64,000 bases of DNA from Clostridiales bacterium. Lineage in GTDB: Bacteria > Bacillota > Clostridia > Lachnospirales > Lachnospiraceae. Numbering within the stretch: the first letter of the stretch is position 1; the number at the start of each line of letters is the position of its first letter. The notes beneath the pieces are model-generated. The model had not been told where the DNA came from. It did not search any database and saw only the letters and a program-made list of their open reading frames with translations. The position numbers were made by a program, and so were the translations under genes. Of the stretch, positions 25,194 through 25,345 are shown piece after piece. The DNA lies in assembly GCA_020859995.1 (NCBI GenBank), contig JAJBVE010000057.1, positions 1 to 64,000 of the forward strand, given 5' to 3'.

Positions 25194-25345
25194 GCGCAAT
25201 GAGAATGGCCTGGCGGTAATAGAGCGGCCTGTGTCTGTGAGCTGCTCATCGGATCGCAGACAGGCTCTAAGGAGAGCCGCGCAATGGAGATTGCCTGACG
25301 GCAATGGGCGCGGCCTGCGTCATCAGTCCTGGCGGGCTGATGACA
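25194..25345. repeat. Two tandem copies (~85 bp apart) of a two-hairpin repeat, atpG-atpD intergenic
   Basis: GCGCAATGaGaATgGCCTGgCGGtAATaGaGCGGCCTGtGTC (from 25194) and GCGCAATGgaGATtGCCTGaCGGcAATgggcGCGGCCTGcGTC (from 25279). Copy 2: GCCGCGC..ATTGCC-TGAC-GGCAAT..GCGCGGC then TCATCAG..CTGATGA. Confidence 0.85.

Follow-up and report, generated by a model that had tools for sequence, protein, structure and literature searches.

The DNA analysed here, a stretch of 64,000 nucleotides referred to as the window, carries an atp operon in which a spacer separates atpG (AtpG stop codon at 25117-25119) from atpD (ATG at 25364), both genes being confirmed by Pfam. The spacer contains an intact copy of a repeated element (25270..25353, + strand), which was recognised by the covariance model R1 with 46.2 bits (E 1e-8). 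It is built of an outer stem P1 (GCCGCGC/GCGCGGC) enclosing an inner hairpin P2 (ATTGCC-TGAC-GGCAAT), followed by a second hairpin P3 (GTCATCAG/CTGATGAC, its arms also being written GTCATCAGTCC/GGGCTGATGAC), and it folds better than shuffled sequences, both as RNA (z -4.5) and as DNA (z -4.6). Directly 3' of the element, the Shine-Dalgarno sequence AGGAGG of atpD was read from the sequence (25352..25357, + strand). A first-pass annotation had assigned the same module to two copies in this spacer, with stems replaced relative to an array at 54009 while pairing was kept. Both statements are true of the intact copy and of that copy alone. The upstream copy (~25186..25271, + strand), delimited by comparison with the closest relative (L149), is orthologous to a single intact unit in the spacer of the latter, its arms no longer pair, it folds no better than shuffles (z 0.09), and the genome search with R1 gave no match to it; this first copy has decayed. 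The position of the element immediately 5' of the atpD Shine-Dalgarno sequence recurs in related species, the atp spacer of which holds zero, one or two units, or remnants. The presence of such an element between essential operon genes, initially considered unexpected, is less surprising given this variation among relatives and the frequent abutment of copies on Shine-Dalgarno sequences; the atpG-atpD location is not special, and the element is probably a passenger there. AtpG itself (24169-25119) measures 305-334 amino acids in most species of the genus versus 285-288 in other Lachnospiraceae, the surplus consisting of variable expansions at three loops.

A second occurrence in the window is an array behind a GH115 gene (54009-54222, + strand), composed of two full and two partial units. 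It starts with a P3 hairpin only (CCTGCATC..GATGCAGG; 54009..54038), continues with a full unit (54039..54123; 81.4 bits with R1) and another in direct tandem (54124..54206; 89 bits), and ends with the 5' arm of P1 only (54207..54222), as found by a repeat search. Two 48-nt direct repeats, each palindromic (ATAAGGGATCCACCAGCAAGCTGGTCCCCCTTAT), lie at 55345-55440, and in two places, on contigs C36 and C85, element copies have a similar palindrome (ATGTCATAAGG..CCTTATGACA) nested within their P3. Furthermore, a 30-nt tandem repeat (TCTGCCTGATCGGCTCGGGAGCCTTCACCG) is present in five decaying copies at 1-150.

The element was both dispersed and tandem, as proposed from the sequence at first. The covariance-model search of the genome and its relatives that had been suggested as a check yielded further copies in both. 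The model, built from eight copies, gave 85 genome matches at E <= 10, approximately 70 of these below 0.01, corresponding to about 75 element copies in the source genome. With simpler means, blastn retrieved about 30 sites and an exact-core pattern nine, compared with none for the reversed control pattern. A number of about 75 copies genome-wide excludes chance as the origin of the repeat. Each unit measures 78-90 bp and consists of P1 (7 bp) around an A-rich linker and P2, and then P3 (about 10 bp). Some copies carry an added third hairpin (CCGTTCTCGATT..AATCGGAACATT), and further copies contain different nested palindromes. Tandem units are direct, head-to-tail repeats, with partial units at the array ends. 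An Rfam search of the window and the atp spacer matched no family to the element, and a search of the available literature retrieved no relevant description of a Lachnospiraceae repeat or of the GA-cis family discussed below.

Within the genus, 17 of 47 genomes carry the element, in 12 to 96 copies, and 30 carry none. In a tree of rlmD (294 columns), a branch supported at 100/100 separated the 16 carriers tested from the remaining sequences; the carriers are one clade of uncultured Lachnospiraceae. Outside the genus, divergent copies were retrieved from 10 of about 396 sampled Lachnospiraceae genomes, these numbers being lower bounds, as 11 candidates were scored per genome. They represent divergent subfamilies in ten other genera, most of them multi-copy. 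No match was found in 16 genomes of other families. One array in another genus (L426; G238:C5:73912-74213) comprises four tandem units that recur every 75 bp and score equally with the model, which suggests very recent amplification.

Base pairing was strongly conserved throughout the family. Among the copies of the source genome, 93.6% of the pair cells were paired, 22 of the 23 pairs displayed two-sided changes, and the covariation score was 0.479, versus 0.138 for shuffled alignments and at most 0.075 when the structure was slid. Similarly, copies from the ten other genera were paired in 94.7% of the cells, with two-sided changes at 21 of the 23 pairs and a score of 0.746 versus 0.176 when shuffled. 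It should be noted that both alignments had been fitted to the model and that the copies within a mobile family lack independence. Lasting mismatches exist too, one example being the A·C of subfamily CCATACTCGC/GCGAGTACGG. The conserved structure is thus real, stem sequences having been replaced while pairing was kept, and neither the absence of covariation nor that of further copies, which would have spoken against the first-pass annotation, was encountered. As the covariation concerns copies of a mobile family, it does not show a function for the host at the atp site.

Comparison of orthologous sites revealed how whole units come and go. In rlmD, empty relatives have four residues between the motifs EPIxG and FRYRNK, versus 32, 44 or 51 in filled species; the corresponding inserts (28, 40 and 47 codons) all keep the frame and contain no stop, and filled and empty species are intermixed on the rlmD tree. 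A 27-codon insert in recD2, also in frame and stop-free, is present in the window genome and in one copy of G050, and is missing from G051 at 95% nucleotide identity; the HHH domain match of RecD2 stops where the element starts. A gene coding for an FAD protein was likewise found with an in-frame insertion relative to an orthologous empty site. In addition, sites in a GH2 gene and in an intergenic region (L043) are empty in the sister genome G049 at 92-93% identity. The element mostly neighbours gene starts. The host genes for RlmD, RecD2, PstC, a GNAT protein and an AAA-ATPase were confirmed with Pfam and NCBIfam, and copies occur inside coding genes on either strand, their counts being approximate because of simple ORF calling. 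Flank matching assigned a copy-bearing counterpart in G049 to only about 25 of 70 copies, and several of these differ by one whole unit; a comparison of stem and flank divergence between both genomes comprised just nine orthologues, some of them paralogues. Orthologous sites that are empty at 80-95% identity indicate that gain or loss is recent, but recombination between repeats, instead of transposition, could have filled or emptied some of the sites. The near relatives are recorded as metagenome-assembled genomes, in which single sites could hold assembly errors, although the pattern recurs in many genomes.

Taken together, the high copy number, the gain and loss of whole units between sister genomes, the insertion in frame or adjacent to Shine-Dalgarno sequences and the conserved pairing were all observed, and the family probably represents mobile DNA elements that are palindromic, non-autonomous and about 78-90 bp long, with P1 enclosing P2 and followed by P3, often arranged head-to-tail. 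Copies may spread via a single-stranded DNA form, the hairpins of which would be recognised by a putative enzyme acting in trans. Foldability would be kept as single-stranded DNA or through template switching, and insertions would presumably be tolerated where they neither shift a reading frame nor part a Shine-Dalgarno sequence from its start codon. Some results count against this reading. No mobilising enzyme was found, and target duplications are short and irregular: direct repeats at the element ends are imperfect and 3-10 bp long, some sites have none, and the similarity of the flanks of the same copy (4.09) barely exceeded the shuffle maximum (4.07), representing a marginal signal.

A smaller but appreciable probability goes to the possibility that pairing is kept mainly by mutation, namely template switching or quasi-palindrome correction, together with conversion between copies and with little selection, which is compatible with a mobile element. 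Template switching is known to yield multi-base compensatory changes (PMC8794818). Whole stems are swapped with intact pairing at orthologous sites (the L043 site between the source genome and G050, as well as rlmD), and in der a P3 arm is a direct repeat of the flanking sequence. However, the P1/P2/P3 layout, the loop and the unpaired motifs (AGCC and GGCCT.CGT) recur in other genera, indicating that local correction is not all that maintains the design.

Selection on structure, either as RNA or as cruciform DNA, had been proposed from the sequence. The conservation of structure stood, but selection as RNA was not supported. A cis-acting RNA of 5' leaders or intercistronic regions, controlling translation or stability and selected on the top strand, is accordingly an unlikely explanation, in spite of the strong covariation. 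It draws on the orientation of the copies in the source genome, as a Shine-Dalgarno sequence and a start codon lie just 3' of 17 of 70 copies in sense versus three in antisense (background 7% per interval scanned), and on the intergenic copies of the genus, which are co-oriented with the downstream gene in a ratio of 32:6; this sense bias could be a sign of an RNA role. Yet, the orientation is flipped in five other genera (G254, G393, G322, G238 and G297), in which two of 22 copies are sense and 14 antisense to a start codon. Furthermore, selection of the top strand as RNA should make G·U more frequent than A·C, but the distinct mismatch contexts, counted in the element stems alone, amounted to G·T:A·C ratios of 22:32 for the source genome and 16:16 for the other genera. 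The insertion polymorphism, the fast turnover and the intragenic copies in both orientations, as judged from rough ORF calls, do not fit an RNA either. Finally, the P2 loop, being C(TNC)G in 29 of 69 copies of the source genome and in 34 of 43 copies of the other genera, fits neither GNRA nor UNCG, and top-strand C(GNA)G or C(TNCG)G was absent from the P2 loops of both sets. Read on the bottom strand, C(TNC)G becomes C(GNA)G, and GNA and GNNA loops form extraordinarily stable DNA mini-hairpins (PMC4686876), making the bottom strand the likelier folded one in the proposed mechanism. Mismatch counts, loop and orientation together favour a DNA element, with which occasional RNA effects remain compatible.

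Less probable still is a REP/REPIN system mobilised by a Y1 transposase (IS200/IS605-like, RAYT). Such a system would account for a dispersed palindromic repeat with single-stranded DNA hairpin loops, and Y1_Tnp genes are present in several carriers. However, they are also present in many non-carriers, and are absent from G000 (97% complete) and G013 (100% complete), despite 50-85 copies of the element (51-56 in G013); Y1 transposase was rejected as the mobiliser, as its presence pattern does not fit the carriers. In addition, a terminal GTAG was not seen in the listed element copies. CGTC does occur at the foot of P3, but the model pairs its GTC, unlike the unpaired tags of REPs (PMC3733652), which rules out membership of the CGTC REPs. 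As to an RNA intervening sequence, removed by splicing or skipped by the ribosome, the hairpin inserts in conserved genes speak in its favour, but the in-frame, stop-free inserts of rlmD and recD2 make read-through the simplest account and leave this explanation practically without credit.

The window also contains a GA-cis match (Rfam RF02987; 9387-9560, 50.8 bits) and a second partial repeat, apparently in frame, inside ORF 8070-9683, a Proton_antipo_M (complex I/Mrp antiporter-like) gene. GA-cis was found in all eight carriers examined, in 20-65 dispersed, partly tandem copies, and elsewhere in two of 41 genomes. It resembles the element in its unit of about 80 nt and in having a second hairpin after a nested one, with C(GAA)G as inner loop, but differs in sequence and in P3. 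A cmscan at the Rfam gathering threshold found no GA-cis match on the element in the window or at 20 loci with other-genus copies, and R1 gave weak reverse-strand scores at GA-cis positions (4.9-14.9 bits), the resemblance to P1/P2 being weak and in reverse orientation. A module (CTCGCCGGGTGGCATCCCGCACTTCGTACGGGAT) is common to element copies L023 (C109) and L123 (C106) and to the GA-cis side at 9460-9520, pointing to an exchange of hairpin modules between the families. GA-cis is probably a sister mobile element. Tentatively, the element, its relatives in ten other Lachnospiraceae genera and GA-cis might even belong to a single superfamily of single-stranded-DNA hairpin elements that are recognised on the strand bearing C(GNA)G, are moved by a kind of enzyme not yet linked to palindromic repeats, and repeatedly write 27-47 new codons into essential proteins.

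These results hold a warning for RNA discovery, as a mobile DNA hairpin can yield near-perfect covariation over many copies, and GA-cis, a curated Rfam 'sRNA' family, is here likewise dispersed and clade-limited. Moreover, the clade offers many natural pairs of filled and empty sites at 80-95% identity, allowing study of the movement of the element as well as of the tolerance of in-frame inserts by the essential proteins RlmD and RecD2.

Among known systems, bacterial MITEs of the RUP, NEMIS and Bcr1 type are similarly short, non-coding, dispersed and located near genes. The element differs from these in lacking terminal inverted repeats that join its ends, the 5' end GAGAGCC and the 3' end GGACAT not being complementary upon inspection; short direct repeats flank it imperfectly at some sites and are missing at others. 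REP/REPIN sequences (GTAG and CGTC super-families) are dispersed palindromes too, some of them intragenic, but they measure 20-40 bp, bear an unpaired terminal tag and occur mostly as head-to-head, inverted pairs, as opposed to the 78-90 bp and the direct, head-to-tail tandems found here. CGTC REPs likewise have no known transposase, and the spread of palindromic repeats without a dedicated transposase is an open question in the REP literature (PMC3733652). Rickettsia palindromic elements (RPE) are small, many-copy repeats inserted into functional genes without a shift of the frame (PMC10969869, PMC3733652). By this description, the in-frame insertions in rlmD, recD2 and the FAD protein gene resemble them. 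These elements, however, belong to another phylum and measure about 150 bp in Rickettsia, whereas the present family has a two-part layout, P1/P2 and then P3, and forms head-to-tail arrays. The element is best read as one of the REP/RPE kind that belongs to neither family.
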